Source: Antedon mediterranea (Eukaryota > Echinodermata > Crinoidea > Comatulida > Antedonidae). Taken from it: a stretch of DNA of 64,000 bases. The stretch covers positions 16,846,288 to 16,910,287 of the forward strand of contig NC_092676.1 in the NCBI RefSeq assembly GCF_964355755.1. Direction: 5' to 3'. Shown one piece after another: positions 12,101-39,600 of the stretch (its first letter is position 1; each line of letters starts with the position of its first letter). A model generated the notes under the pieces. The model saw nothing but the letters and a program-made list of their open reading frames with translations, searched no databases and had not been told where the DNA came from. The position numbers and the translations under genes are program-made.

Positions 12101-15100
12101 AGTTAAGTTGGCGATCAGGTGTGAGAGAGATAATTGTACCTTACATGTGACGTGCAACGACAACAAGTGTTGTTTCATTTTAGTTGAAATACACACACAA
12201 TTTATTCAGTAACCAACCGAGTTCTCAGCGTTTTAAGTCACTACTGCGGAGGATGCCATACGAGAATCGAGCGATGTGTACTATTGATAATTATGCCAGA
12301 TTTCACACGTTTTAGAAAACCGAAAACGGTCGATCATATTTTTTCGAAGGAGCAAATTAAAGACGTCCACTTAGAGTTAATTATGAACATTTTCATTTCA
12401 TATCGATATTGGAGGTGTCGTCACCCAGTGATATTTTCTGCCGTGTACCTGATGGGTACTTACGTGTTGTTTGAGGTTCTTGTTCAGTGGTTTCCATCAT
12501 TGGTGTATCTACCACATCACTTTGGTGTGTAGTATGCCTGTCTGTATCTATTATATAAAAATGAATGTTTTGAATGAATAGAAAACCTAAACAATTTCAA
12601 AAAATGCATGTTGAAACTGGAGGTATTGTCGACCAAGTGACATTTTCTGTTCTATATATTTGTTTAAAGAAGCAACGACCTCTATATTGTCTATTATGTT
12701 TTAATACGTATTATATATACAGGGTATTCATGAACACATTCAGAGTGACAGAGGGCTTGTTGTTTAACATTTCAGCTCTATATTGACGATACAAGTACTC
12801 GACACTTTGATACAATAAGCGTTTGTGAAGTCACCAATTATTATCAAGTTTCTGTAACGCCCAAAAACATAGGACGGTAACTTAAAAACTGTGGTCGAAA
12901 TTGTGTTAAACAAACAAAGCAAGTACTAGGCCTAACACTTGGCAACATATTTGGCCAAGTAATAGAAAGAGACCAGTGGTTAGTACACATCCAACTGTGT
13001 ACTATTAATATTATGCTGAACTTTATAGCTTTTTAAGAAACCACATTTTACAAAAAACCAGTAAAGAACGTAGAGAAGGTTTCCTCAACCAAGGCTATCT
13101 AATAACAAGATGCTGAGCTCAGGAGATGCGACACCGCGCGCCACGGAGAATATGTACAGTACTGTCGGCATTTGTCACGCGTTTCTGTCTTGTCAAGGCG
13201 AGCTAAGTGTCCTGTTGTTAGATTGCCCTGCTCCAACTCAAGATTTGAACAAAACAGTCGACCATACAACTGATTGTCATTGCAGGATCATATATGTGGC
13301 ATCGTTGCCCAGTGAAACTTGCAGCTTCGTGTTTTGTGGAAAACAACCTTTATTTTATTTTTATTTAAAGCGTAAAATTCTCATAGATTATGTGTTTATA
13401 CCGCTAAGTGAATGATTTGTACATATCACACGAGGTTGTAGTTTTTCGACTGTGTAGACCTATATTATTAATAATTTGTCGGAATTATAGCTGCTTTTTT
13501 AGAAATGTAATTTTCTACTCAACTGCGTATGTATTAGGTTTATTATAATGCAATTATAATTTTATTTCAGGTAGACATGGATGATAATACGTACGAGTTG
13601 TCTGATGTTCTGCTTGAGTGGTTTCCAATGGCGTACCTGTAAAGAACAGGAACATGCTTAGAAATCCAAATCAGCTCTGAATAAACGCTATAACATATTT
13701 TGTCTAACTTATTAGTTTCCAAATTCTTTTTTAACTAAAGAAAATGGTCGACTAAGAATGAAATTAATAAATGCCATGCCACTCTTTATTGGTTCTAGCA
13801 ATTTACCGTTATGTTTACGTAACATCATTTATTGCATCAAAGGAAAGTTTACTCAAATCGGAAATGAATTTTAATGTTCTAAAACACTACGTATTTATAG
13901 GTTTATCATTTCATAATGCAATTATAATTTTATTTAGGGTAGACATGGATGATAATACGTACGAGTTGTCTGTTGTTCTGCTTGAGTGGTTTCCAATGGC
14001 GTACCTGTGAAGAACATGAAAATGCTTAGAAATTCAAATCAGCTCTGAATAAATGCTATAAAATATTTTTTCTCAACTCATTTCTTTCAAAATACTTTTT
14101 TAACTGAAAAAACGGTCGACTAAGAATGAAATTAACAAATGCCACTCTTTATTGGTTCTAGTAATTTACCGTTATGTTTACGTAACATCATTTATTGCAT
14201 CAAAGGAAAGTTTACTCAAATCTGAAATAGATTTTAATGTTCTAAAACATATTTATTAGGTTTATCATTTCATAATGCAATTATAATTTTATTTAGGATA
14301 GACATGGATTAATGTTAATACGTACGAGTTGTCTGTTGTTCTGCTTGAGTGGTTTCCAATGGCGTACCTGTGAACAACATGAAAATGCTTAGAAATTCAA
14401 ATCAGCTCTGAATAAACGCTATAAGATATTTTTTATAACTTATTAGTTTTTAAACTCTTTTTTTACTGAAGAAAATGGTCGACTAAGACTGAAATTAATA
14501 AATGCCACTTTTTAGTGGTTCTAGTAATTTAGCGTTATGTTTACATAACATCATTTATTGCATCAAAGTTTACTCAAATCTGAAATGGATTTTAATGTTC
14601 TAAAACACTACGTGTATTAGGTTTATTATAATGCATTTATAATTTTATTTAGGATAGACATGGAATAATGTTAATACGTACGAGTTGTCTGTTGTTCTGT
14701 TTGAGTGGTTTCCAATGACGTACCTGTGAACAACATGAAAATGCTTAGAAATTCAAATCAGCCCTGAATAAATGCTATAAAATTTTTTTTGTCAACTTAT
14801 TTGTTTCCAAATTCTTTTTTAACTGAAAAAAACGGTCGACTAAGAATGAAATTAATAAATGCCACTCTTTATTGGTTCTAGCAATTTACCGTTATGTTTA
14901 CGTAACATCATTTATTGCATCAAAGGAAAGTTTACTCAAATCGGAAATAGATTTTAATGTTCTAAAACATATTTATTAGGTTTATTATTTTATAATGCAA
15001 TTATAATTTATTTAGGATAGACATGGATTAATGTTAATACGTACGAGTTTGTTGTTCTGTAGTTTCCAACATCGGCGTTGTAGTTGGAGGTTCTAGAAAA

Positions 15101-18100
15101 TATAACAATTTGAAAATTGTTAGAAATTGCAATGACATGATTTAAAAAGAACTAGAACTAGAATTATAATAACTACAAAACTGTTCTCTAACAATCTTTC
15201 AAACGGTTGAAATATCACTTTTTAACAAACCAAGCGAATTTAGTTACTTACCTTCACAGTCTGAGTCAAATGCCAATTCATACGCAATTGCCGCTGAAAA
15301 CAACAATTTAAAAGTTTAATCAGTAATATAGAGGGTCTATAAAGGCCTCGACCCCTGTTTTAAATCAAAAGGACTTATCGTAAGGGTATAAGACCATACA
15401 CAGCCCATTACATTACCATGGAATGGCACAAAATGACTATGAACAGACAGTTATTACCAATACCATTGTTAACTTGATCACTTTTTATATACGTAGCAAA
15501 TGCGGAACAGTAAGTACATTAGTATACCTTCTTTACTTGGGCCTTTTACAAATGCTACTCGCAAGTAGCATCCTGTTCCTAAACAACCTTTGACATGAAG
15601 TTTGACAAAATCTGCACGTAGTTGATGTAGAAACATGCTAAGTACACATTGGTATCTCGATGCTCTACTGACTTGAAATCTCTGTAAATGTATTATTAGC
15701 ATTATCATTGTCATTATTTTGACACTAAGATACGTCTGAAGCAATAACACACATACATCATATAACTGGCTTATAATTGTTTTTATTTATAAAAATGACC
15801 ACTCGAAACGTGTATGCCGCACATACACAGAGAAGAAGTTAAACATGATTAACGGATTAAGATAGGGCTAATATGATTCTGAACTAAACATCACATGGAT
15901 GTTCAGAGAAAAATAGCCTGATAGAATATAAATACTGAGCAAGTGGGTGTAGGCGGGAGGGTAGATTGAACTTCTTACTGGCAAAAAATGTAGAGGTGTT
16001 AAACTCGTGGAGACCAAATTCAAGTGCTTGAAATTACGCCGTCTCTAGTTTGAAAATAGATTTGTGTTCGACTCAATTCTTATTTAAATTGTTTCCCGAC
16101 GGTAACTGGCTGAGTTGCTTGCTGTCGAATGGGTATGAAATAAAATAATTCTCTAATTTAAACCAACCAGAAGTAGGTCTAGTTAGAACATGGTTTAAAA
16201 TATAACCCGTTGTGATTACAGACATTCATATATATCTTCATAAAAATTATAAAGTCGCTCTCACGACGCCAGTCAAGAAGCCGATTTCCATGTATATTAT
16301 TCTTACCTGCAAACCATCTTTGTCAAATGCAAATTCAGAATCATTGGTATCAAAGTTATAATAATTGCTAAATTCTAGCTCAAACTCGGAGACCCATCCA
16401 TCGCGTTCAGCATTCCTTGTTCCATCACCCAGTGTCACAATGCCAAAGATAGTTGTTCGTCGACGAAGGTCAAATGAAATCCAAGGGTCATCGTCATTTG
16501 GATTCGGGTGCCATGATGAGTGACTATTAACATGTGCTTTTTTTGGTGGACTATTATCAACCTGAGATGACGCTCTGAAAAAACGGTCTCTATATATAGT
16601 TGAGTTGTGAAGCCCTACGTATCCACAAACTTCATCGGCAGTTACATCTGGAATTTAAATATAAAATGCAATTTCCAGATGTAAACGCATTATTGTTGTG
16701 TTTTTCTTAATATAAAGTATCTGCATTATCGTAAGTTCTACAATCAACATATATTATTGATTATTACGGAACCTGAAGACTTAAGACAGTGATTGTGTGT
16801 AATAATAAACACCTGCTTAACCCCTACCTAAGAATCTATATGGATCAGAAAAAAACAAAAATGCAGTACGATGAAAAGAAATGACATGATCAGCTCATTT
16901 TACTTGAAAAGCCGAAGAACTTCTGCAAATCGCAGACTAAATGTTACGAATAGGGGGCGCTGTTCTACACCTAAGCAATGGACTCCTAGCAACCACTAAC
17001 ATCTAGTCATTGCCAGAAGGAGACTGTTGGAACGTCGCACACATAGGTATTCATGGTTTAAATTAAAGAATTATACACAGATAAAAAAAAACAGATGAAA
17101 ACATTTTACAATACAATTATTCCTGTAAAAAACAATAAGTACAGAAGAATGTTGGTGAAAACCAATAATTGGCCTTGTAGACCTACGATGTCATATAGGC
17201 CTATTTAGTGAACATTGAGTTGTAAATATATACTTATGTACCATTAGCGGAGCGAAGTCTAAGTATTTCCATCCTTAAGTAAGGTCCTGTACCATGATGT
17301 CCTGCAACATGAAGTTTCACATGTTGAGCAAGTACGCCTTGCTGGAACATATTCGTTGTGCGGTCATATCGTGAAGTTGCGTCAGACCTAAATATGTGCT
17401 GATTGAAAAAAATAAGACCGAGTTAGTATGACAGTCTACACCTAATCTCTCGCTTTTAATTATTTAGTGATATGCTCACCTAACTAAGCTTAATTTCCAG
17501 GTAAACGTAATACAGTTATGTGGTTTGTGTATAGATTTCTTTTACGTTTACGGATCCGTTCTATCTTTGGTTTTTCAAGAGTGCATAATTATATATTATA
17601 TATGCTTTTCATTTATTTATTTATTTCATTTAGTTCATTTAGTTCATTTACACGGACTAAACATACACCATACTTCTAGACAATATCATTGTTACTTTAT
17701 ATACAGTTAAAGCCTGTTTTCCTGTCGACGTTATTCGACGCTATCGTTAACAAAAATCGGCGATCTTCAACGTAAACATTAACATTTTAAAGATTTACAG
17801 GAAAAGGGACTTTTTAAACTAACGATGACGATACAAAATGTCAGCGATTTACAGGAAAAGGTGTAATAATCGACGGTAATTGACGCTACAAGTCGCGATC
17901 GTTGACAATCGCAAGAGTTTTTGAATCCAGTTCAAAAGCGATATCGCAACGCTAAAACGTAAGAACTGACCAATCATCATGGCGATACAGCACATGACGT
18001 TACATAATTGATGGCAAATTCTGCTTACTACATTTATTTTTGTTGCATCGCGGAGCAAGGCCTAGCCTTACCAAAGTTACTATAAAATTTTACTTTTCCT

Positions 18101-21100: not shown

Positions 21101-24100
21101 TTGCCTTACTTTTAATGTCATATAATATTATAATTATATATACAACCAGACATTAAAATTTTTTTTAAATAATATTTATTATTTTTTCTGACACTTTCAG
21201 GAAGCGTTGATGATGCAGAGTTCTTTGTCTTTGTGACTTCAAACTGAGAGTGAAGTGGATAAAAAGATGACACCGGTACCTACCGACATTGTCATATACC
21301 CAAACTATAATTTAATTATTTAAAACAAAATGTTGAATTACAAATATGTATGTTGCAGAGGATTTAGATGAATTACAATACAAATATTTATGTTGAATGC
21401 AAACCTACTACTATACTCTGTAAATTATGTTATTGTCATGTGGTAGACCTTAAAAATTGAATATTTATTGTATGTTAGGCCTAGGCTATTTTATATTTTA
21501 TTAATACTGTATTAATAATAATACTATTAATTTATATTATACAGTACTAGTTTGTACATGTTTTTACCCAAAAAAAATGAATAAATAATTTGTTATTCAA
21601 TCTAATTGCTTGTTTGTTCATCAATAACAAAACAATTGTAAGCAAGTATATAACAGTTCTTGTTAGCCGCTTATTTCAGGTCATATTATTAATATTAGCT
21701 AGGCCCGACGCGCCCGATCACAACGTCACTAAGTGACTTTCCGCCCCTGGAACAATCGCTCGCTAATAGGGCTAGGCCTCGGACTCGTATAAAAGCTATT
21801 ATAATAGTTATGATAAATATTCCTCAACTAAAATGTATACTGTGATAAATAAACAAGTAAATAATATACGTTGTATTGGAATGTATTTATTTATATGAAT
21901 TCTTATACGCGGACAATTATAAACACCGCGTATATCGTTCGCTATAAATAAATTCATAAACACGATGACGATGTGTTTACAAAATGGCGGTTTCACTAGT
22001 TTTCGATGGAACAAATAGTGGTACCTTTAGTTTGAATAGTCGGAGCTGCATTCCAACCACCGAATTTTGTATCTTAATATCGTATTCTGTAGATTATTAA
22101 TTTTTCTAACAGGGATTTTAAATTCAGGACTGTTCAATTTTTCTAAATATTTTATTTTAACGATTTTCTAGGGTACAATTTCGGAAAAAAGACATTGGTT
22201 GATTTTGCCGTTAAATTACAGATTATCGTTTTGTTCAAATACATTTAATTTTACATGACAATATATTAAAACCATTTATGAATTTATTTCACTAACAATA
22301 TTTTTCCGATAATCAGCTAAATTTACAAATATTGTGTTTTTCCAACACCCTAAAATTTAGCAATTTTGAACTAAATTAGAAAAGTAGGGCGCCCTCTCCG
22401 AGTCGAAATTTGACACGATTTGTCGACTGGCTGTCCCACTGTGTACATATCTATGGCCATAGGCCTACAGTATAATAAAGAGACTGTAGGGCCATTATAC
22501 TGTTATGTACATCTATTCAATACAGAGTACCAAACATAGTAGTACTGATGTATTATATGTTATTGTAATATTGATGGCATAAAGATACACATGGGATTTT
22601 TTTCTGAGGTTTTTCATGAATAATAACTCATTATTTGTTGCATCAATTGCCTATAGGAAAATGCGCTCTGGTGTAAAAGAGGTATAGTTCGACAAACTAC
22701 GATCACTTACCTCTGCGGTGTCAGCATTAACCGCAAAAACAGAAGGAGTAAAATGTTCGTTTTCGCTTAATTCCAATCTGAATTCCGTAATCCATCCATC
22801 ATGTGCTATATCAATTCCTCCATCACCCTGTGTTATGATTCCAATGATTGTTTCAATTTTTCCGATGTCTACACTAATCCAAGGCAAGTTGTCTGTAGAA
22901 TCATGGCACCACGATCCAAAATTGTTCAACATGGCTTTCTGAGCCTTGAATGATGGAGAACGCGAAGAGGCATCGAAAGCAGACGATGGTATCTTAAATC
23001 TCCCCTCCAATCCAACTTGCATAGTTTGGTTAATAAAGTAACCTACAATTTAAAAAGATTTTATCGACACATCTGTATGTTACATTTGTAGTAAAAGTCT
23101 ACAAACAAAACATTCAACAATCAGATTTTTATATTATATTATTTGAATTATACCATTTTCCTATAAAACATCGTGAATAATGTCAACTAGATAGAAATTA
23201 CACGGGAGAGATCCCATTTGTATCAAGCATGCAGTAACGGAGTTATGCAATTGTGGAGGGTAACCTTCTGTCCTTAAACAGCACCAGTGTCGTGTTTTTT
23301 AACTCAGAGGGACTTTTTTTATTGACACCAATAAAAATACTGATGTATTACAAACCCGAAGGCGACATGGAAGGTGTTTGTGTCAAAACGTGTAACTAAC
23401 AAAAATTCAATCTAGAGGAATCAGAGGATGCGTGTATAATAACCGGGGTACTAATATAAGTAATTCTCTCTTTAAAAAAGGGGGTTTTTAGATTTGACTT
23501 GTGCATATAAATGTAAAATGTAAATAACGAGAATTGTATCACCGTCATATGAAGACAGTTAAAAAACAAATGCTTTGATTCGTTAACAGATTGACTTTCG
23601 TATACAGTATTAAACAATAGTTAAAATTATGGCAATTGGACAAAAATTTTCAGAATTATAAAAAATCAGAATTAGTATATTTCATATAGGCCTAAAATCC
23701 TACCTGAAACTTCTTCATCCGTGACTATTCCTGATTGACTACCTGAACCAGTAGTTATACCTGATGATACGTCTTCAACCGTAACTATTCCTGATTCTTC
23801 ACCTGGCTGAATACCTGAATCAGTAGTCCTACTTAATAACCCAACATCTGTAACGGTTCCTGCGTAAAATTTAACTAGTGAAACATTATTTGAACTTAAC
23901 TCCAAATTATATAACGATAAATAATACCGTAATTTATCAAATATGATTGGTAAATTATGATTGCAAACTTACTTTGAACGCACGTGTAATCAACTTCTGT
24001 ATATTTGTAAGTGTCAGGACAAGGGTCGCTAACTGTTGACAGTTTCCTTATTTCACAATGCGGTTGGCCGTTGCAGATTTCAATAAAATATGCCGTCAAA

Positions 24101-27100
24101 TCAATTCCGCAGTTATTGTTGTGTATAGAAGGGTGAGGGCAAAAACCTGAGTTATAACGTCCATAACGTACAGATTTAACGTTAATATATCCATCTTCAT
24201 TGCATTGCGGATTTCCAGTATCCGGCTCACATACTATAAGCTTAGCAACTATAATTTGAGAAAAATAAAGATAATTATGTGAAAATGTAGGCGTACATCC
24301 TATTCCCTGAAGTCTTGTCTATTTACCATTCATTCGATTTTTTGTAAACCTTAACAGCTGGATGGACACAGACTAGGTGGCTCTTACCTTCACTTGATCC
24401 ACTTCCTGATCCACTACCTGATCCACTTCCTGCTAATCCACTTCCTCCTGACCCACTTCCTGATCCACTACCTCCTGATTCACTCCCAGATCCACTTCCT
24501 CCTGATCCACCTCCTGATCCACTTCCTGATACACCTCCTGATCCACTTCCGGATCCACCTCCTGATTCACTTCCTGATCCACTACCTCTTGATCCACCTC
24601 CTCCTGATCCACTTTCCGATCCACCTCCTGATCCACCTCCTGATTGACTTCCAGATCCACTTCCTGATCCACTACCTCCTGATCCACCTCTTGATCCACT
24701 TCCGGATCCACCTCCTGATCCACTTCCTGATCCACTACCTCCTAATCCACTACCTCCTGATCCACTACCTCCTGATCCACTACCTCCTGATCCACCTCTT
24801 GATCCACTTCCGGATCCACCTCCTGATCCACTTCCTGATCCACTACCTCCTGATCCACTACCTCCTGATCCACTACCTCCTGATCCACTTCCTGATCCAC
24901 TACCTCCTGATCCACTTCCTGATCCACTACCTCCTGATCCACTACCTCCTGATCCACTTCCTAATCCACTACCTCCTGATCCACTACCTCCTGATCCACT
25001 ACCTCCTGATCCACTACCTCCTGATCCACTACCTCCTGATCCACTACTTCCTGATCCACTACCTCCTGATCCACTTCCTGATCCACTACCTCCTGATCCA
25101 CTACCTCCTGATCCACTTCCTGATCCACTACCTCCTGATCCACTACCTCCTGATCCACTACCTCCTGATCCACTTCCTCCTGATCCACTTCCTAATCCAC
25201 TACCTCCTGATCCACTACCTCCTGATCCACTTCCTCCCGATCCACTACCCCCTGATCCAGATCCACCTAATTGTAATAGAACACTGTGTTTATTTACTTG
25301 CTTTTATTTTTATTTATATTTATTATTTTTTTAGGGTGCTTGTTAGCTTAAACAAGGCCATATAGATGGCTGCAGTCGCGTGCTCATTAGTGTTTACCGA
25401 CCGACCGACCAACCTACCAACTGACCGAAATTACTGAACACGTTTAAAAATGTTGAAATGTTTAAAAACTTTTATATTTTTTTAATTTAAACGTGCGTAG
25501 CCTGTCACTTTTAACGTAATTCGAGTTGAAAAGTAAGTCAAGAAAACAGAAATCGGGCAAAAAGAGTGCGCAATAACATTTAACGCGCAGTGGGCGCGCA
25601 AAAATCTGCGCACTCATGGCAATTTTGTAAACGCTTAAAATTGCCTGAAACGTACTCTTATTTAATCGAAAATAAATTTTGAAAATGTTAAGCACGCGTA
25701 CGCATGCGTTACATGCGCTACGCACGTAATTGTATTGCCATATGATGATTTATGCCCTGAAATTTATGAGTACCAAATTTTATTTAATTGTGATTCAGGG
25801 TTGTGAAGATATGATTATAAACGTGATTTCGTTTTAAATCGTGCGTACACCACGTAATCTTTAATTGCGCACCGTGAAAACATAACCACATCGATTCCTG
25901 GCCATAAGGAATATACTGTGAAAAATTGACTAGATTAAACTGATATCAAGATAAGGTCAGAAAGCGATAAAACGCATAGTGATACCGGACCGACAGACAG
26001 ACCGACAGACCGACATAGTGAACTATAGAGTCGCGTCCACGCGACTAAAAATATGTGCTCTGCACAGATCTTAAAATATGCATCCTTCATGTACATGGTT
26101 GTAGTATATGAAAAGAAAAAATAAATTCAATTAAATTGATTTGTGTATTATTTATCATAAATATAGAAAAGCATTATGATATGAATACATATCATAGTTT
26201 TTGGAGAGACTATCATTTGTTTTCTTTCAATATGTAATTCTGTAAAGTGCAAATAAAAAGTATAGTGTAGTCGATTGAGTAGTCTAATGTTGAACACTAC
26301 TTACTTTGACTACCACTACTGCTGTTTATGTATAGGATACTCAATAAGATGATGACCTGAAGAAGTATAAAGGAAATGCAAGTTTAATTTCTTTATTTTA
26401 GTTAAAGACATGATGATGATTTTGCAAGTCACTTGCCATCTCAGAGTATGCTGATCGATATTAAAGGCCAGTAATTTACATAAAATTATAATATTAGTAG
26501 TGAGCTAGAATTTGATACCAATAAACTTTTTATCTTAACATATTTACGTGATATAATGTTGGTGTGGCCTAATGACGTCTTTTTGGTACCCCTTCTAGTA
26601 TTATTAGATAAGCCTACAAAATGTTTGTATCGAGTGCTGTTGTCAAAAATTACGAAACTACAAAAGATAATTGACAAATGTGATGTGGTAGTCGGCAGGA
26701 AAATGTTAGGCCTTATATGGCCTTTAGAACCACACTTTGATCTAGTCTTTTCTTGAAACGATTCACTGAGGAACCAGTTACCACATAGTCAGGGAGGGAA
26801 TTCCAGTAATGATCTTTGAGAGAAGAAGTCCCTTCTGCAATCGAGGGATTTAAAATGGTTGTTATTTTAGATGGTCTTGTAAAAACAATTTACATTAACT
26901 TTTATTGAGGTTATTTGTTGGTTGTAAAGGTCTCTATGACCGAACTACGCAAAACTATTACGTGTATGTGTATAAAATTTAATGATAACTGAATTTATAT
27001 GCAACTGGTTGCATATATTTTGAATTGTGGTGCTCGCGATAGTATTATTTGTGAGATTCCTGTTATTGTTTTACTATTATGTTATTATGTCCTCTCTTTC

Positions 27101-27812
27101 TTCATAGTGGCATCAGATGTAAGTGGGGTCAGTATAGGCAGTTACTCGAATGAAAAGAGTACATATCACAACTCTAAAAGAAAATTGTTACCATAGAAAT
27201 GATGTTTTCGTCAAAAAATCAGACGATTGTGCTGTCCCAAACGAATTGGTTAAATAACTACTTATATTAAGTGAAAGATAAAGTTCGAAAAAAAATATTA
27301 TTTGAGCTTGTAAATGTCGAGGTAACTGAAATAATGATATACCTAATTGAAATGTTATCATAGGCTGGCCACAAGCTCAACACTCTTCTAATTTTCGAAT
27401 TTGATATGGGCCTACTAAAATAAGAATTGCAGCCTCCATTGTACAAGCACATGGGGGACGTGGGAAAATTTTGATTGCTAACAATTGGTTTTAAATACTG
27501 AAACTAGAAACTAAAACAATAATTTCAACGCATACACATGAATGAAGTTATCTACAGTATACAGACAACACTCTCAATAATACCAGAATGTTTGGAAACG
27601 GGAAACTATGACCTAATTTAAATGGTTCCATAATTCTTTTACCATTAAAAACCATTTCTAAATACCAGACTTTGCAGAAAAATAAAATATTAGGCCAGTC
27701 CATTGGTGTCCATTATTGGGTAAGTAACAGGTTGATAATTTAAACATTTCTCAGGAAAATAAAATAAAAATAAATTTCTTACCAAATTTACAATGCGAAT
27801 ATGTCGGTACAT
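77..27812 (-). CDS. Gene A: lectin/discoidin adhesion GPCR (5' complete, 3' cut by window edge)
   Basis: Spliced gene read from 27812 leftwards. Coding exons (plus-strand coordinates): 27783-27812, 26305-26356, 24388-25266, 23973-24248, 23704-23859, 22711-23042, 17242-17398, 16307-16647, 15528-15681, 15252-15293, 15045-15092, 14682-14723, 14326-14367, 13963-14004, 13595-13636, 12464-12547, 11858-11914, 10259-10363, 9371-9469, 9015-9046, 8628-8792, 8322-8369, 7893-8001, 6941-7127, 1152-1373, 938-1049, 77-180. Every junction is AG/GT with matching phase, giving about 1,319 residues up to TM1. Order: signal peptide (1-27), Gly/Ser linker (28-320), SUEL lectin (321-412), linker (413-464), discoidin 1 (465-627), discoidin 2 (628-792), stalk (793-1004), GAIN (1005-1285, GPS near its end), TM1. 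Established for aGPCRs: the GAIN domain self-cleaves at the GPS and exposes a tethered agonist. The lectin and discoidin domains suggest a cell-surface receptor for glycans, lipids or matrix; the ligand is unknown. TM2-TM7 are expected left of base 1. Exon usage in the stalk array is inferred. Confidence 0.87.
938..1373 (-). CDS. Gene A exons 25-26: GAIN subdomain B with GPS
   Basis: Exon 25 (1152-1373) encodes ETYGTANTASGILSVTLTSN, then VQMGVNFSLATNTTGFNDG, and ends AIVCSFWDTSFE. Exon 26 (938-1049) continues VWSQYGCKKVLADDHSVSCE and CNHTTSFAVLVQVNEAE. The arrangement C-x-F-W ... W-S-x-x-G-C ... C-x-C-N-H-T-T-S-F-A-V-L is the GPS with its two disulphide pairs and an intact cleavage triplet H-T|T. 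The sequence after it, TSFAVLVQV, matches the tethered-agonist (Stachel) consensus T-x-F-A-V-L, so this receptor is predicted to be autoproteolysed and self-activated. Splicing: GTAAGT and GTACAT donors, AATAG acceptor. Confidence 0.92.
1874..2370 (+). repeat. Dispersed repeat family, long copy
   Basis: The part 1874-2102 (starting AACTAGAAAGCCACTCCGAG) is nearly identical to 63418-63645. The part about 2075-2370 (motif TTTTTTGGACAAGTAGTTCT) is repeated at about 5660-5945 in the same orientation. This suggests one longer mobile element of which the three loci hold different pieces. The small open frame at 2103-2369 is not a real gene. Class unknown. Confidence 0.65.
2560..2800 (-). mobile_element. 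tRNA-derived SINE-like fragment
   Basis: On the minus strand 2798-2740 reads ATGCTTGGCTACCACTCCCA then GGTCCTAGGTTCAAGTCCCG. The second part carries a good RNA polymerase III B box (GGTTCAAGTCC). The ATGCTTG(G/T)CTACCACTCC block is shared with the segment at 36784-36960, and both have a GGATGGATCA block further on. I read them as members of one tRNA-related SINE family. No intact tRNA fold is present. Confidence 0.5.
2900..5560. repeat. Large inverted repeat with internal tandem units
   Basis: The left arm (about 3000-3640) is the reverse complement of the right arm (about 4870-5510). For example, ACACATTTTGAAAATGTGGC at 3157 is mirrored near 5382, and GTCAGGGTCAAGGGTTATAT near 3493 is mirrored near 5050. 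Each arm itself contains about two units of roughly 300 bp, each with GGTCAAAGGTCAGAAATGGC-type sequence. The loop (about 3640-4870) is unrelated AT-rich DNA. It is probably two copies of one mobile element in opposite orientation. Open frames in the arms are incidental. Confidence 0.75.
3719..3762. repeat. Short near-perfect hairpin
   Basis: ACCGATAAAACTTATACAT is followed by a three-base loop and its near-exact complement ATGTATAAGTTTTGTCGGT (one mismatch that pairs G-T in RNA). It sits inside a gene A intron. It could be a collapsed MITE; its sequence is too simple to claim a microRNA precursor. Confidence 0.5.
5660..5945 (+). repeat. Dispersed repeat family, second copy
   Basis: This matches 2075-2370 with scattered substitutions and small indels, including AACAATAGAACAGCAAC and GGACAAGTAGTTCTCGAG. 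With the first copy it brackets the big inverted repeat, so the set may be one composite insertion. Confidence 0.6.
6941..8792 (-). CDS. Gene A exons 21-24: GAIN domain, N-terminal part
   Basis: Exons 8628-8792 (LDDAPAKNVLNAVSESGIDD... to YRNSTK), 8322-8369 (TILKMTRVLLDPRNNL), 7893-8001 (KNADKLNAATLTEDIISKMT... to VKEDNM) and 6941-7127 (CYHMDTSQFENTVFDIPTTT... to RIVRHG). The helical pattern, then 'LLDP.NNL', then the 'FENTVFDIP' strand match GAIN subdomain A and its passage to subdomain B. Exons 22 and 23 are exactly 48 and 109 nt, as are the homologous exons of gene B. For exon 24 I chose the distal donor GG|GTAAAT because only it restores phase with exon 25; the nearer G|GTAAGA would not. 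Confidence 0.82.
7160..7480 (-). mobile_element. Degraded TTAA-type MITE copy
   Basis: The right edge GGTGGACAATACATCTATAA is the mirror of the terminal repeat of the element at 61010-61310 (AAGATGTATTGTCCCC...). Interior blocks such as CAAAAATTGAATCG and TTTGGTTGAATTTAAC also resemble that element. The left terminal repeat is no longer clear. It lies in the gene A intron between exons 23 and 24. Confidence 0.4.
9015..12547 (-). CDS. Gene A exons 16-20: acidic/Thr-rich stalk exons
   Basis: Five further small exons lead to the GAIN domain: 12464-12547 (HTTHQSDVVDTPMMETTEQ...), 11858-11914 (VEADIAKTIEEDERYVTYTG), 10259-10363 (ELDVDYTTLIQEEDEEIVTE...), 9371-9469 (EINVDSSETTHKSDIETVAT...) and 9015-9046 (FNSFNNLERM). 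All but the last are phase 1-1. Exons 16 and 19 are paralogous to each other and to the cassettes in exons 11-15 (shared THxSD and ETT(E/Q)..TTR), so the whole stalk looks built by exon duplication and divergence. There is no recognised domain. The intron between 10363 and 11858 holds the GTAAGT minisatellite. Confidence 0.67.
10595..11520 (-). repeat. 18-bp minisatellite carrying GTAAGT in each unit
   Basis: Dozens of copies of the plus-strand unit CCACTTACACTTCCCGTA, with CTTACG and TTACTTAC variants, lie in the gene A intron between exons 17 and 18. On the coding (minus) strand each unit contains GTAAGT, the consensus 5' splice site, and reads Gly-Thr-Gly-Ser-Val-Ser. The minus frame is open over 10914-11255 and, shifted, over 10595-10930; single-base changes and inserted TAGGCCTAC blocks break it. 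I treat it as intronic, though it may derive from an exon end of the stalk. Confidence 0.85.
13595..15092 (-). CDS. Gene A exons 11-15: tandem array of stalk cassette exons
   Basis: Five copies of a roughly 360-bp unit, each with a small phase 1-1 exon: 15045-15092 (48 nt), 14682-14723, 14326-14367, 13963-14004 and 13595-13636 (42 nt each). The 42-nt exons encode variants of TPLETTQAEQQTT. The oldest-looking copy encodes EPPTTTPMLETTEQQT. Each has an upstream pyrimidine-rich CACAG or TACAG acceptor and the same C|GTACGT donor. Intron sequence is copied along with the exon (shared blocks such as TTATTGGTTCTAG on the plus strand). Because all are symmetric, any number can be included without a frameshift. 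The product is a Thr/Gln-rich stalk, probably O-glycosylated. Actual inclusion of each copy is not provable here. Confidence 0.68.
15252..15293 (-). CDS. Gene A exon 10: 14-residue stalk exon
   Basis: A 42-nt phase 1-1 micro-exon with good splice sites (TTTTCAG and GTAAGT) encodes AIAYELAFDSDCE. It keeps the frame between discoidin 2 and the stalk cassettes. The ELAFDSD part resembles EFAFDKD near the end of exon 8, so it may be a remnant of a duplicated discoidin exon. Function unknown. Confidence 0.6.
15528..15681 (-). CDS. Gene A exon 9: C-terminal half of discoidin domain 2
   Basis: A 154-nt exon, phase 0-1, encodes RFQVSRASRYQCVLSMFLH, then QLRADFVKLHVKGCLGTG and CYLRVAFVKGPSKEG. It aligns well with exon 7 (FRSDATSRYDRTTNMF against FQVSRASRYQCVLSMF, HVKLHV against FVKLHV). 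This confirms that exons 6-7 and 8-9 are duplicated domains. Acceptor TTACAG; donor GTATAC. Confidence 0.88.
16307..16647 (-). CDS. Gene A exon 8: N-terminal half of discoidin domain 2
   Basis: The 341-nt exon, phase 1 to 0, encodes VTADEVCGYVGLHNSTIYRD, then FFRASSQVDNSPPKKAHVN, SSWHPNPNDDDPWISFDLRR, TTIFGIVTLGDGTRN and DGWVSEFELEFSNY, ending GLQ. It is a clear F5/8C domain with the same exon border as discoidin 1: both split after the first two thirds of the domain, in phase 0. That suggests the two domains arose by duplication of an exon pair. Acceptor TTCCAG; donor GTAAGA. Confidence 0.9.
17242..17398 (-). CDS. Gene A exon 7: C-terminal half of discoidin domain 1
   Basis: This phase 0-1 exon encodes HIFRSDATSRYDRTTNMF, then QGVLAQHVKLHVAGHHG and TGPYLRMEILRLR. 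It matches the last part of F5/8C domains (loss of contact, then a-x-[YHF]-[VI]-[RK]-[LI] and L-R-[ML]-E-[IL]). The acceptor is AATCAG immediately before CAC. The nearer TTTAG at 17390-17388 would put a stop in frame or break phase with exon 6, so I rejected it. The donor is GTACAT. Confidence 0.84.
17714..18185. mobile_element. MITE with long terminal inverted repeats
   Basis: The left end CTGTTTTCCTGTCGACGTTA and the right end (reverse complement CTGTTTTCCTGTCGACGTTA) match, and the similarity continues inward for about 60 bp (GACGCTATCGTTAACAA, then TCGGCGAT and TGTTTACG on the other side). There is no coding capacity. It sits in gene A intron 6. The superfamily was not determined because the target duplication is unclear (AAAGC on the left, CTTTT on the right). 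Confidence 0.8.
18713..19701. mobile_element. TTAA-flanked non-autonomous DNA transposon
   Basis: It begins TTAAAGATGTATTGTCTC and ends with its complement GGGACAATACATCTTTAA, with TTAA at both edges as in piggyBac-type insertions. The same termini bound the element at 61010-61310. It contains a second element (19094-19590) inserted inside it. The open frame at 18928-19278 crosses the boundary of the inserted element and has no recognisable domain, so it is not called a gene. Confidence 0.7.
19094..19590. mobile_element. Nested MITE with GGGAGGTTTCGCAAC termini
   Basis: The left end GGGAGGTTTCGCAACGCTAC and the right end (complement GGGAGGTTTCGCAACCTCAC) are inverted repeats that continue over about 45 bp (ACGAATACGATAAC...ACGGATACG). 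Each end is flanked by TA, which fits a TA target duplication (Tc1/mariner-like; inference). It lies inside the TTAA element. Confidence 0.75.
20216..20242 (+). repeat. (CA)n microsatellite
   Basis: About 12 CA dinucleotides in gene A intron 6. Confidence 0.9.
20274..22440. mobile_element. Possible 2.2-kb non-autonomous element with CAGTGGGANAGCCA ends
   Basis: The left side reads CAGTGGGAAAGCCA and, 20-30 bases on, AAATCGTGTAAAATCGACTT. The right side, reverse-complemented, reads CAGTGGGACAGCCA and then AAATCGTGTCAAATTTCGAC. The ends are therefore matching but diverged inverted repeats. Inside are a poly-C tract (20925-20939) and two GAATAGTCGGAG blocks (20617 and 22034). I could not identify a clear target duplication or a transposase. 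Confidence 0.4.
22711..23042 (-). CDS. Gene A exon 6: N-terminal half of discoidin domain 1
   Basis: The 332-nt exon starts in phase 1 (YFINQTMQVGLEGRF...) and ends in phase 0. It carries the F5/8 type C hallmarks: an S-S/A-rich first strand (IPSSAFDASSR), GSWCHDS, LPWISVDIGK, TIIGIITQGDGG and DGWITEFRLELSENE. The pattern W-I-x-x-D-[IL]-G followed by [IV]-x-G-[IV]-x-T-Q is diagnostic of the discoidin jelly-roll core. The second half of the domain is in the next exon, 5.3 kb away across an intron full of mobile elements. F5/8C domains bind phospholipids, glycans or matrix proteins; which applies here is unknown. Confidence 0.87.
23704..23859 (-). CDS. Gene A exon 5: acidic/Gly-Ser linker
   Basis: A phase 1-1 exon of 156 nt encodes a low-complexity segment with repeated SGI(V/T)T-type units: TVTDVGLLSRTTDSG, then GEESGIVTVEDVSSGITTG and GSGSQSGIVTDEEVSG. 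It separates the lectin from the first discoidin domain. It resembles three decayed copies of a Ser-Gly-Ile-Val-Thr unit, so it probably also arose by tandem duplication. No known domain is visible, and an unstructured extracellular linker is the likely role. Splice signals: acceptor ACGCAG at 23862-23860, donor GTAGGA. Confidence 0.72.
23973..24248 (-). CDS. Gene A exon 4: SUEL / rhamnose-binding lectin domain
   Basis: A single 276-nt exon (phase 1-1) encodes about 92 residues with the SUEL-type galactose/rhamnose-binding lectin pattern: an early Cys (VCEPDTG), a Cys pair, VRYGR (equivalent of the family ANYGR motif), FCPHPS, NCGID, YFIEICNGQPHC, then DPCPDTYKYTEVDYTCVQ, which holds the DPC motif and a KYT variant of the usual KYL. 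The eight or so cysteines typical of the fold are present. The family binds L-rhamnose or D-galactose, and it is also the N-terminal domain of latrophilins (ADGRL), where it binds teneurin. Here it sits behind a Gly/Ser spacer and before discoidin domains. Acceptor TTATAG; donor GTAAGT. Sugar specificity cannot be read from the sequence. Confidence 0.87.
24388..25266 (-). CDS. Gene A exon 3: (GGSGS)n glycine-serine linker
   Basis: This 879-nt exon is almost entirely a tandem array of 15-bp units (minus strand AGGAGGTAGTGGATC) and 12-bp units. In the frame set by the flanking exons they read GGSGS and GSGS. It starts after an ATTAG acceptor at 25267 and ends SSE-G at a GTAAGAG donor (24387-24386), phase 1 on both sides. 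No stop interrupts the Gly/Ser frame over about 293 residues; rare substitutions give Glu, Gln, Leu, Val or Arg. It lies between the signal peptide and the lectin domain, so it should be an extracellular flexible spacer with many Ser sites for O-linked sugar. The other frames are also open only because the units are multiples of three. It could instead be an intronic satellite, but matching phases and splice sites favour coding. Confidence 0.72.
25340..26049. mobile_element. Tetranucleotide-array element, copy 1
   Basis: It runs from ACAAGGCCATATAGATGGC through ACCGACCGACC, an internal region and a second GACCGACAGACAGACC array to the end AGAGTCGCGTCCACGCGACT. The final 18 bases form a hairpin (AGTCGCG/CGCGACT). 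Internal blocks such as AAGCGATAAAACGCATAGTG and the GTGCGCAATAACATT region recur in inverted orientation at 37147-37960. It lies in gene A intron 2. No protein is encoded. Confidence 0.75.
26305..27812 (-). CDS. Gene A exons 1-2: start codon and signal peptide
   Basis: The start ATG is at 27812-27810. Exon 1 encodes MYRHIRIVNL and ends at a GTAAGA donor (27783). Exon 2 (26305-26356) follows a CTTCAG acceptor and continues VIILLSILYINSSSG, ending in phase 1 at a GTAAGT donor. Joined, these give a basic n-region, a hydrophobic core of about 12 residues and a polar Ser/Gly end, which is a classical secretory signal peptide. Neither exon is recognisable alone; the call rests on their fit to each other and to the in-phase Gly/Ser exon. 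The intron (26357-27782) and the DNA upstream show no other coding signal. The 5' UTR and promoter are not defined. Confidence 0.75.
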
Positions 27813-29170
27813 GTTGACAGATCGGTTGATAAACAATTTCAAACAATTCTCTATTCACGCATCTTGAAGACTTTTTAGTTCAACTTCGACTACTTCGGCG
27901 TCGGTGTAATTATATTTGAAATATACTGCTATACTGCTAGACAAAAAAATGTATTATTGATCTGCTGTATTGACGGTATTGCTTAGTTCTATCAAAACAC
28001 TGAGTTAGATAAATTTCTGTATTAATAAGCAATCGATAGTATTGAGTAATCATGAGATGTGGGGGTGACAACAAATAAATTATTAATTAACTTCCGTTCA
28101 ATTGAAAACGTCATATTGTGTAGTATATTATATTTAAACAATTGTTTTAGAACGTAAACATAAATGGAAGTATTGCAAGGTTTTAAGTTTAATCCCTAAG
28201 GGATACATTTACCTACTTTTGTAAACGAAATAGTTATGCTGGGATTTGTATAAACGTATATTAAATCTTTCAAAATAGTAAATCGGCCTGTTTCAACATT
28301 ATGATGCTGTACTCGAGCTGTTCAACCGGTTTTCAGCTATAAGTAATTATCGTAGAAAGAGATCTCGTATTCTTATGTGCGGTATTTTTCAGCATCGACA
28401 TCTATAGACATTGTTTAGCACGATCGGAAAACTCCCCTATTTGGGGAGAATCGTTGAACCTAAATTCGTTTTAATTGTCAATAACTAATTATTTAACTTA
28501 ATCTCATTAGTGCTATGGTTTTCATTAGGTGTTAAAAATCAGTATTGACACTATGTACCAAATTTATATACCATCGTGTAAAAATTCCAAAAGTTATGCG
28601 CGATTTACCAATTTTTACCTTTACGTAAATTTATATATAGAAACACTTCGTTTCAACTTTTAAGTACGATATTGACTGAAATACAACGTGGATAATGTTA
28701 GGTTGCATAATATATTGTTATGTTCTCACACAATACTGTTTTACGCAAGCAATGGAGCTTTCGATTTATGACGATCTACGACCATTTCTTGTGACCTATG
28801 ACCCATGCTAATAATTATATGTTACGCATACGTTGGAGATTACGACACTGAATTCGGTATCAAAAAATCATAGGTCGTCACAAATCGAAAGTTAATGTTT
28901 CTTCTGATTAAAATTATTCTACTAATACCCGTGTAGCTTTCTAAATCGTGAAGCAACCAATTAATAAAACCTATCAATAACTGAAAAAAACTATTACCAA
29001 TTACAGAAAAACACCTAAAACTTACTTATCTACAAAAACCTATAAAAGCCACCTCAAATTTCCGATGTACTAACCAATTCTTGACGCCCTATTTACCAAT
29101 TACTGTAAAAATATAACGATTCATTAGGAAACCTAATGTATAAATTCCTGATGTAGAGTCTAACCTATTC
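27813..29170. other. Intergenic region upstream of gene A
   Basis: AT-rich, without coding signal. A diverged inverted repeat (CTTTCGATTTATGACGA near 28757 and TCGTCACAAATCGAAAG near 28875) may be a small MITE. The promoter of gene A must lie here or just upstream of its ATG, but I see no TATA box I would defend. Confidence 0.5.
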
Positions 29171-29179
29171 ATTCCTAAA

Positions 29180-30050
29180 TTGAAAAAAACATGCAGAAGC
29201 AATCACTCTTATACAACCACTTCTGATGAAATCACTATTGATGCAACCACTTCTGATGAAACCAAACCTGATGATGCAAACACTTCTGATACAGCCACTT
29301 CTTTTGCAACCACTCTTGATGCAATCACTCCTGGTTCAACAACTCATGGTGCAACAACTCCTGATGCAACCACTCCAGATGCAACCACTCTCGATGCGAT
29401 CACTCCCGATGCAATCAATCCTGGTGCAGTCACTCCAAATGCAACCACTTCTTATGCAACCACTCCTTGTGCAACCACTCCTGGTGCAATCATTCCCGAT
29501 GCAATCAATCCTGCCAAATCATTCCAGATGCAACCACTTCTTATGCAACCACTCTATGTGCAATCACCCATGATGCAAGCAGTCCTGGAGCAACCATTCC
29601 TGATTCTTGGTGCAATCACTCCAGATGCAACCAATTGTAATTCAATCACTCATGATGCAACTACTCCTGGTGCAATAAATCCTGATGCAATCATTCCTAA
29701 TCCAACCACTCCAGATACAGCCACTCCCGATGCAATCACTCCCGATACAATCATTCCTGGTGCAATCACTCCAGATGCAACCTTTTCAATTTTTCATATG
29801 CAACCACTTATACATTCACTCCTTGTGTAATCATTCCAGGGGCAACCACTCCTTATACATTCACTCCTGATGCAATCACTCCATGTGCAACCACTCCTGA
29901 TACATTCACTTCTGGTGTAATATCTTCAGGTGCAACCACTCCTGATACATTCACTCTTGGTGTAATAACTCCATGTGCAACCACTCCTGATACATTCACT
30001 GTTGGTGTAATCACTCCAGGTGCAACCACTCCTGATATATTCACTGCTTA
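29180..30050 (+). repeat. 15-bp minisatellite (ACTCCTGATGCAACC type)
   Basis: Tandem 15-bp units with variation. On the plus strand the first 330 bp read as (TTPDA)n after a short Ser/Asp-rich lead. Around 29510 the frame is lost and later units drift in phase and sequence. On the minus strand the right part reads VNVSGVVA(H/P)GVITP units. It sits between the two receptor genes. It could be a former mucin-type stalk exon; no splice sites or flanking exons support a live gene. Confidence 0.8.
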
Positions 30051-36634: not shown

Positions 36635-39600
36635 GTAATATTATAATATTGGTTTTTTTAATACATAGCAAAATAAGTGCATAATGAAATGTGTTAGCAG
36701 TGCATTCATGATATGAATATAACTATAGTATGTATTTAGTACATAATTACATTATACATATGATTGTGTAATTGAGAAAATTAAGTGGAGTTGTGGCTTG
36801 GTGGTTATGATGCTTGTCTACCACTCCAAGGGTGGATGGATCACTCTCATTAAATATAGTTTTTAAAAAAACTTCATGTTGTGGGCATAATTGAAATGAA
36901 AGAATATATGTGAATAGGATAGATCCCGGTGTGCTCAATGCAATTGCAACAAGCCAGAGGTGTGGCATCTTCAAACGAAATCAGTCATAAGTATGATTTT
37001 CGAAATTGAGATTTTTACAAACACTAAAGTTACATTCATTGTTTTGAGAAAATAATAATGCTGGTAAAGTTAAGTAACAGGAAATGACAAGAAGCACAAA
37101 AAAATAAACATGGCGATTATGTCCACACCTTAGAAACGTGTTGTTTTTAGTCGCGTGGAAGCGACTCTATAGTTCACTATGTCGGTCGGTCGGTCTGTCT
37201 GTCTGTCTGTCGGTCTGTCGGTCTGTCTGTCGGTCTGTCTGTCTGTCGGTCCGGTATCACTATGCGTTTTATCGCTTTATGACCTTATCTTGATATCAGT
37301 TTAATCTAGCTAAATCAATTTTTCACAGAATATTCCTTATGGCCAGGAATCGATGTGGTTATGATTTCACGGTGCGCAATAAAAAAGTACGCGGTCTACG
37401 CACGATTTAACGAAATCACGTTTGTAATCATATCTTAACAACCATGAATCACAATTAAATAAAATTTGGTACTCATAAATTTCAGGACATAAATCATCAT
37501 ATGGCAATACAATTACGTGCGTAGCGCATGTAACGCATGCGTACGCGCGCCTAAAATTTTCAAAATTTATTTTCGATGAAATAAGAGTACGTTTCAGGCA
37601 ATTTTAAGCGTTTACAAAATTGCCATGAGTGCGCAGATTTTTGCGCGCGCACTGCGCGTTAAATGTTATTGCGCCCTCTTTTTGCCCGATTTCTGTTTTC
37701 TTGACTTACTTTTCAACTCGAAATTACGTTATACGAGCACGTCAAAAGTGACAGGCTACGCACGTGTAAATTAAAAAAATATAAACGTTTTTAAACATTT
37801 CAACATTTTTAAACATGTTCAGTAATTTCGGTCAGTATAGTTCACTATGTCGGTCGGTCCGTCTGTCTGTCGGTCTGTCTGTCTGTCGGTCTGTTTGTCT
37901 GTCGGTCCGGTATCACTATGCATTGTAGCACGCGACTTAATGGCTGTTGGCCTTGTTTTATTGTTGTATTTCAATGTAAATTTGCACAAGTGTTCACTCT
38001 AACTATTAAATAATAAAGTACGAATGAATTTAGCTGATTGTTGCTTTTGTGTACCTGTCGATAGAGAAGAATGGAAGATTGTGCGACATAATACTTGTAA
38101 ATTGTATTTACGCCTTAGAGTATAATTATATTTCTTTCTATTATATTTCATGTCTACCGTATTTATTATGCAAGTTGCTATTGCAAAATGTAGTTGTAAA
38201 TACAATAATAAGTCCACAGAACGTCTCGGGACTGTTTTTTCGGAACCACCCATTATTGCATTTCGTAGACCTCCCAACCTTCGTGATATATTAGTCAGAT
38301 CCAACTTTAAGAGTGAAATTAACTCTCATGACAGCCAAAATGTGGGCAGTCACCTTTGCAGCAAATCTTGCAAAACTTGTTCATTGGTTGATTCTACTGA
38401 AAATTTTAAGAGTAACCAAACTGGCCGCATTTTTCGGATAAGACAATCAATTAATTGTCTAACCAAAAACGTCATTTATCTCATATACTGTAATATTTGT
38501 GGCAAACAGTACGTCAGAGAAACAAAAACACTCTCCGTATGAGAATGACACAACACAGATCAGCTATCAAAACATTCAAGCTTGATCAACCTGTAGCCGA
38601 ACATTGTAATTCAGCTGGTCACTCGATTGCAAATTTCAGAGTTATTGCAATAGACCACGATGTCAAATGGAGCGAAAAAACTCGCAAAGACAAGGAAAAC
38701 CACTGGGAATTACAACTTAAAACCACAAAACCTTTTGGACTTAACATACTCCCAGATCGGTAAAATTATTCCATTGACATTTAAGTTTCAATATTAACCA
38801 CCATTTAAGCTATTTTTTAGTCTCATTCCAAAATTGTTTATATCTCTATACCAATACCTTCTTTGTTTTCTACTCTTATTCAGACTCCACCCTGTCTCCC
38901 TTTGTTATATTTCTTTTGTTCCTGTCCACCCAGGCAGCACTTGCCAGCTTTATACTATACCGTTATCCAAATTCCTTCACTTGCACTGATGAATGGCTAG
39001 TGTTGCCCGAAAGCTAACTTTTCTGGCTGTTTTACTTCTCGTTTTGATTTAGCTTTTCGCTTTTATTTTGTATCTCCATTGAGATCCAGCCGCTGATACC
39101 CACAGCATTGTCATTTTTTCAGTAATTTGCCTTTGGATTTACAATAATAAACACAAATATATTTAGTGATTTGTATGTGATTTTTTCATAGATATTTTCT
39201 GCAAGTCCTAGGAATGAAAATGACTACGTGGTAAACATGTTTTCATCTCCAGTTAAAGGGCGATATATCAAACTCAATGTCATTAGTTGCAATAACAGAT
39301 GTGCATTGAGGCTAGAAATTATTGTCTGCTCAAGTAAGTTGTTTTTTCTAAGATAAGTATTCTTATAAAACAATTAAGTGTGACAATGGCTAAGCGGGTA
39401 TTACTTATAAAACAGTGTGTTTGTTTGCTTGTTCCACCCCGAAACATGATTAAAATCTACAGTTATCTGTACTTGTGCAGACATATTAAAAAGCTCCCTC
39501 TCTCTCTCTCCCTGTGTGCAAACTTCTTTAAACTTTACCTTATGTTTATTTGATTTGATTTATTCTCTTAATCCGTTTAATACAGTTCATGTGTTCATTT

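Follow-up and report, generated by a model that had tools for sequence, protein, structure and literature searches.

An in-frame Gly-Ser minisatellite in a crinoid adhesion GPCR gene, probably read as a free N-terminal tail

The predicted third exon of an adhesion GPCR gene of the crinoid Antedon mediterranea consists of a minisatellite that reads almost entirely as glycine and serine. We consider it probable, though far from settled, that this exon is a coding minisatellite which, if spliced in, gives the receptor a disordered, free N-terminal Gly-Ser tail. The window analysed here is a stretch of 64,000 nucleotides (NCBI RefSeq assembly GCF_964355755.1, contig NC_092676.1, positions 16,846,288 to 16,910,287) and contains no ambiguous bases.

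The Gly-Ser array

A first-pass annotation of the window had described a Gly-Ser exon of about 290 residues at 24388-25266, made of 12- and 15-bp units and placed between a signal peptide and a lectin. The coordinates proved exact. The array covers window positions 25266-24388 on the minus strand, is 879 nt long, translates into 293 residues with no stops, and sits in frame, with a signal-peptide-like start ahead of it and a SUEL domain behind. The tract had also been called uninterrupted Gly-Ser, which is true of the reading frame, open throughout, but not of the residues. Gly (162) and Ser (117) account for 279 of the 293 residues; four Leu, four Glu, three Arg and single Gln, Val and Ala residues make up the remaining 14.

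Tandem Repeats Finder (TRF) reported periods of 15, 27 and 42 bp over the array. Counted by codon, the units are GGSGS (n = 25), GSGS (n = 14) and variants of these. Every one of the 59 distances separating GGATY anchors is divisible by three. In an 18-mer array within one of the gene's introns this holds for 34 of 37 (3 off). The contrast is small, and such spacing is partly built into 12- and 15-bp units. The longest exact internal repeats measure 82 nt (shift 108 nt) and 76 nt, and each of the 15 longest repeats listed is shifted by a multiple of three. Repeats of this length make instability of the array plausible, and judging from the sequence, changes in length are to be expected. There are 4 off-consensus codons in the first third of the exon, 6 in the second and 15 in the last, suggesting that homogenisation was probably more recent in the first two thirds than in the remainder. 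Growth of the array was probably through duplications of 12- and 15-bp units that kept the frame, and these too would be younger in the first two thirds.

The receptor gene

The gene model comprises 35 exons encoding 1,626 residues; it starts at window position 27812 and ends at C7:16840660, which is 5.6 kb past the low end of the window (Table 1). The exons were picked by eye to satisfy splice and phase rules and then joined by script; all introns are GT-AG and all phases are consistent. The encoded order is a signal-peptide-like start, the Gly-Ser tract, a SUEL lectin domain, an acidic Ser-Gly linker, two discoidin (F5/8C) domains, a Thr/Glu-rich stalk, a GPS and seven helices.

Table 1. Features of the receptor gene in window coordinates, except where a C7 position is given.
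Feature	Position	Strand	Basis
Exon 1: start codon, MYRHIRIVNL, signal-peptide n-region	27783-27812	-	gene model
Exon 2: VIILLSILYINSSSGSQ, presumed signal-peptide hydrophobic core; phase 1 at its end	26305-26356	-	gene model, hydropathy
Exon 3: 879-nt Gly-Ser minisatellite reading 293 residues, phase 1-1	24388-25266	-	TRF, translation, gene model
Exon 4: SUEL (rhamnose-binding) lectin domain	23973-24248	-	Pfam 7.9e-14, solved lectins
Exon 5: 52-residue linker, acidic near Ser-Gly (DSG, EESG, EDVSSG)	23704-23859	-	gene model
Exon 6: discoidin (F5/8C) domain 1, first part	22711-23042	-	Pfam 2.3e-10
Exon 7: discoidin domain 1, second part	17242-17398	-	with exons 6 and 7 joined, match reaches end of Pfam profile
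Exon 8: discoidin domain 2, first part	16307-16647	-	Pfam 1.1e-10
Exon 9: discoidin domain 2, second part	15528-15681	-	position, likeness to exon 7
Exon 10	15252-15293	-	gene model
Exon 11: Thr-rich stalk, resembles mini-exons by inspection	15045-15092	-	gene model
Four 42-nt stalk mini-exons, phase 1-1	13595-14723	-	TRF, gene model
Individual mini-exons, spaced 356-368 bp	14723-14682, 14367-14326, 14004-13963, 13636-13595	-	
Exons 12-16: Thr/Glu-rich stalk	9015-12547	-	gene model
Exons 17-20: region in place of GAIN domain	6984-8792	-	position; no Pfam family of its own found
Exons 21-22: remaining GAIN-like region and GPS (CNHT/TSFAVLVQ)	938-1371	-	Pfam GPS 1.4e-10
Exon 23: first transmembrane helix	77-180	-	7tm_2 over joined exons
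Exons 24-31: beyond the window	C7:16846040-16840660		gene model, 7tm_2 over joined exons

Judged by its predicted domains, the receptor is an adhesion GPCR that carries a lectin domain and discoidin domains. Over the joined exons, Pfam matches were obtained for the secretin-like seven-helix domain (7tm_2, 6e-51) and for a GPS motif before the first helix (4.7e-11; sequence CNHTTSFAVLVQ), and the SUEL match of exon 4 (7.9e-14) stood at 6.4e-13 in the joined model. The region before the GPS fits a GAIN domain in size and place, and in residues 994-1626 the Pfam scan (E 0.01) returned only the GPS and 7tm_2. The lectin domain has eight cysteines and both the YGR and DPC motifs. Its best matches among solved lectins were named L-rhamnose-binding lectin, CSL3 and CSL2, with latrophilins behind, and the best solved seven-helix chains were ADGRL2 (1.2e-38), ADGRL3 (1.9e-37) and then ADGRD1.

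The receptor shares with the latrophilins (ADGRL1-3) a SUEL lectin near the N-terminus, a GPS and a seven-helix domain. Latrophilins further carry olfactomedin, hormone-receptor and latrophilin C-terminal domains. None of these three families was found at E 0.01 in the scanned parts of the joined model (residues 1-27 joined to 321-792, and residues 994-1626), though an exon may have been missed, and the receptor has two discoidin domains that set it apart. On this domain content it is not a latrophilin.

The stalk includes a second repeat system. Each of the four mini-exons is 42 nt long, has phase 1-1 and adds 14 residues, RTPLETTQAEQQTT or a near copy. They belong to a 363-bp tandem repeat at window 13545-15049 (4.2 copies) with one 42-nt exon per copy, that is, a tandem exon duplication. 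Gain or loss of one such repeat would change the length of the stalk by 14 residues.

Evidence for and against a coding exon 3

The frame of exon 3 had been described as set by both flanking exons. This is borne out: the exon has phase 1-1, both neighbours are in phase 1, and an AG stands directly before the array and GTAAGA directly after it. The splice sites had also been rated as good, which applies to the donor but not to the acceptor. The donor is 18th among the 34 of the model, and of the 2169 GTs in the gene span 1.2% score equal or higher, whereas the acceptor is weak, ranking 31st of 34, with 18% of the 1826 AGs in the gene span scoring equal or higher.

The open frame was rejected as proof of coding. 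One antisense frame is likewise open across the whole array, so that an open frame alone proves little, and the zero stops seen compare with only 0.33 expected. Nor was purifying selection seen in exon 3 in a simulation that placed the same 24 single-base changes at random in the array: 11 of the 24 single-step changes are synonymous as compared to 9.2 expected (P 0.20), or 9 of 20 when repeated contexts are counted once. The 24 derive from 25 off-consensus codons, one of which was excluded as lying two steps away. Assignment of the odd codons to the nearest consensus codon is a choice, since AGA was assigned to AGT but could derive from GGA, the change being nonsynonymous either way. What argues for a coding exon, as far as the sequence can tell, is its position, its phase, its edges and the contrast with the intronic 18-mer array, which has stops in all six frames.

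We infer that exon 3 is spliced in and translated. That it is instead a cassette or unused exon, mostly skipped, with the array effectively intronic, we hold to be rather unlikely. The phase of 1-1 means that skipping, or a change in length by whole units, leaves the frame intact, and the weak acceptor and the undetected selection are likewise consistent with skipping. The window is rich in tandem arrays (42 TRF rows), one of them in an intron of the receptor gene, and a further tandem array lies upstream of the lectin exon at a second SUEL locus. Against this, the exon 3 array is stop-free in precisely the frame of its neighbours, with usable sites at its very edges, whereas the second-locus array, like the intronic 18-mer array, has stops in all six frames.

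Uniqueness of the array and other repeats

A 29-base pattern, searched across the genome with up to two mismatches, gave 31 matches, all of them in exon 3, and the reversed control gave none. With a 147-residue protein query, both genomic matches fell in exon 3, one passing the exon edge by a base; the low complexity makes such a search insensitive, as a second stretch of exon 3, although 100% identical, scored only 28 bits. With a degenerate pattern there were 27 matches (16 in exon 3, five in one array on C1 and six single), and since its reversed control yielded 18, the single matches mean nothing. The array at C1:29845473 has a 15-bp period and 7.4 copies and reads GTGSG ahead of a poly-proline stretch, a formin-like arrangement; it is another possible coding Gly-Ser minisatellite.

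An interspersed repeat lies directly upstream of exon 3 at 25350-25900, where the query ended. From 2813 first-look candidates, 39 other copies were scored on C1-C11, with 92-95% identity. An origin of exon 3 from this repeat is unsupported, as most copies end their match about 84 nt before the exon, and an origin from exon 5 is unconvincing, the eight matches shown being just 12-19 nt long.

Several other arrays were observed in the window. More than half of the donor-like GTAAGT hexamers in the gene span (38 of 65) fall in the intronic 18-bp minisatellite (10603-11495, downstream of exon 13). A plus-strand ORF of 957 aa (39581-42454, stop to stop) contains 28-residue Thr/Asn-rich repeats in 84-bp units, and another of 719 aa (50816-52975, stop to stop) contains 56-residue acidic repeats in 168-bp units; neither matched a Pfam family at E 0.01. 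The 84-mer array (2304 nt) and the 168-mer array (951 nt) each have one frame that is open from end to end, suggesting that coding minisatellites may be common in the window. At 29199-30036, a 15-bp repeat is overlapped in part by a plus-strand ORF of 228 aa, and the whole array has stops in all six frames.

The genome contains 12 SUEL lectin matches, 11 besides exon 4. Six of the 12 lie on one strand within about 40 kb (C2:24013577-24053627). A second candidate SUEL adhesion GPCR is found at C3:8197798-8225468 (L015), where a SUEL match and two seven-helix matches share one strand over 28 kb. No Gly-Ser array was present among the tandem repeats 8-10 kb upstream of three of the 11 other SUEL loci (L013, L015 and L016), a range that exons farther upstream would escape.

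Possible glycosaminoglycan attachment

Serglycin carries Ser-Gly runs, and the tract may similarly be a serglycin-like Ser-Gly attachment region. The receptor would then at times be a proteoglycan, with the glycosaminoglycan chains doing the work. This is compatible with the tail reading, and we regard it as unlikely. The 293 residues include 107 Ser-Gly pairs, 100 GSG and 69 SGxG motifs, and these runs are what the tract has in common with serglycin and other Ser-Gly repeat proteoglycans; it differs from them in being poor in acidic residues and in belonging to a seven-helix receptor. Ser-Gly is given as the most frequent attachment site, with repeats that favour heparan sulfate (PMC4598785), and xylosyltransferase 1 is described as poorly tolerating replacement of either Gly flanking the serine, at -1 or +1 (PMC13038410). 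The latter source also states that Glu and Asp tended to increase and Lys and Arg to decrease xylosyltransferase activity, and that an attachment site is not predictable from any consensus (PMC13038410). The tract contains just four acidic residues, all Glu, plus three Arg. Three of the Glu form E-S-G contexts, located in the last quarter of the tract, and exon 5 is richer in acidic Ser-Gly contexts. A Ser-Gly region of SULF1 without an acidic cluster is described as unmodified in a preprint (PMC13405426). An adhesion GPCR review gives glycosaminoglycans as ligands of ADGRA2, and the word 'proteoglycan' is absent from its searched part (PMC13197933).

A part-time proteoglycan could also present its length-variable glycosaminoglycan tail, through galactose-containing linkage sugars, as a cis ligand for its own galactose/rhamnose-binding lectin, with allele length and skipping tuning the masking. 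We consider this improbable. The stalk mini-exons would in that case tune reach separately.

A probable free tail rather than a tether

The first-pass annotation had regarded the tract as a linker whose length sets the reach of the lectin from the membrane. The gene order does not support this. The GPS and the seven helices place the membrane anchor C-terminal to the lectin, and between the two lie exon 5, two discoidin domains, the Thr/Glu-rich stalk and the GAIN-like region. Because the tract is N-terminal to the lectin, it would be a free terminal tail, not a linker, once the signal peptide has been cut, and the length of a free-ended tract should not set the distance of the lectin from its own membrane. 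The stalk, unlike the distal tract, could set this reach.

The mature receptor would thus carry, at its extracellular N-terminus and outside the lectin, a hydrophilic and disordered tail of about 290 residues. Such a tract is probably tolerated for two reasons, the solubility and lack of structure of Gly-Ser sequences and the symmetry of the exon. The likely effect would be steric and entropic, with a mobile and perhaps partly glycosylated tail around the face of the lectin that might affect ligand access.

It is very improbable that exons 1-3 are part of another transcript and that the lectin gene begins elsewhere. The selection of exons by eye leaves room for such an error, but phase is consistent from exon 1 to exon 5, and exon 1 has an open frame (ORF 27690-27854) that begins after a stop at 27855-27857, close upstream of the start codon. 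A length-tuned tether, with an uncleaved signal sequence anchoring the N-terminus and the tract limiting movement of the lectin from the membrane, is extremely improbable: the N-terminal hydrophobic stretch has a hydropathy of 1.86 over 19 residues, comparable to the weaker ones among the seven helices, a value that does not decide between a cleaved and an uncleaved signal, but with about 11 residues the stretch is short, and by inspection it is followed by small residues suiting cleavage, and the signal peptide of adhesion GPCRs is cleaved as a rule.

Discussion

Coding VNTRs are familiar from DRD4 and MUC1, which are in-frame minisatellites in animal membrane or surface proteins. The array in exon 3 is likewise an in-frame minisatellite in a membrane protein, differing in residue content and position. 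The linkers of filamentous phage pIII carry a GGGS motif and sit between folded domains, whereas the receptor tract would be a terminal tail and is longer. Both are natural, flexible and rich in Gly, and both belong to a surface protein, as described for pIII (PMC10175506). In the bacterial periscope proteins, a change in repeat number has been proposed to alter a surface adhesin (PMC8201768). There the repeats are folded rods between the ligand domain and the surface. The repeat of the receptor is Gly-Ser, which by its composition we infer does not fold, and it is distal to the lectin, on the N-terminal side and away from the anchor. Among the titles and abstract openings listed in literature searches, none showed a Gly-Ser tract in an adhesion GPCR, which is not a claim of absence from print.

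One gene contains two separate repeat systems, of which the distal tail should not set reach and the duplicated stalk mini-exons could. If translated, the tract would be a natural counterpart, nearly 300 residues long, of engineered Gly-Ser linkers, located at the free terminus of an adhesion receptor that signals. Such a tract would reveal what length of bare Gly-Ser chain an animal receptor tolerates, whether the secretory route adds glycans to it, and whether ligand access differs between length variants.
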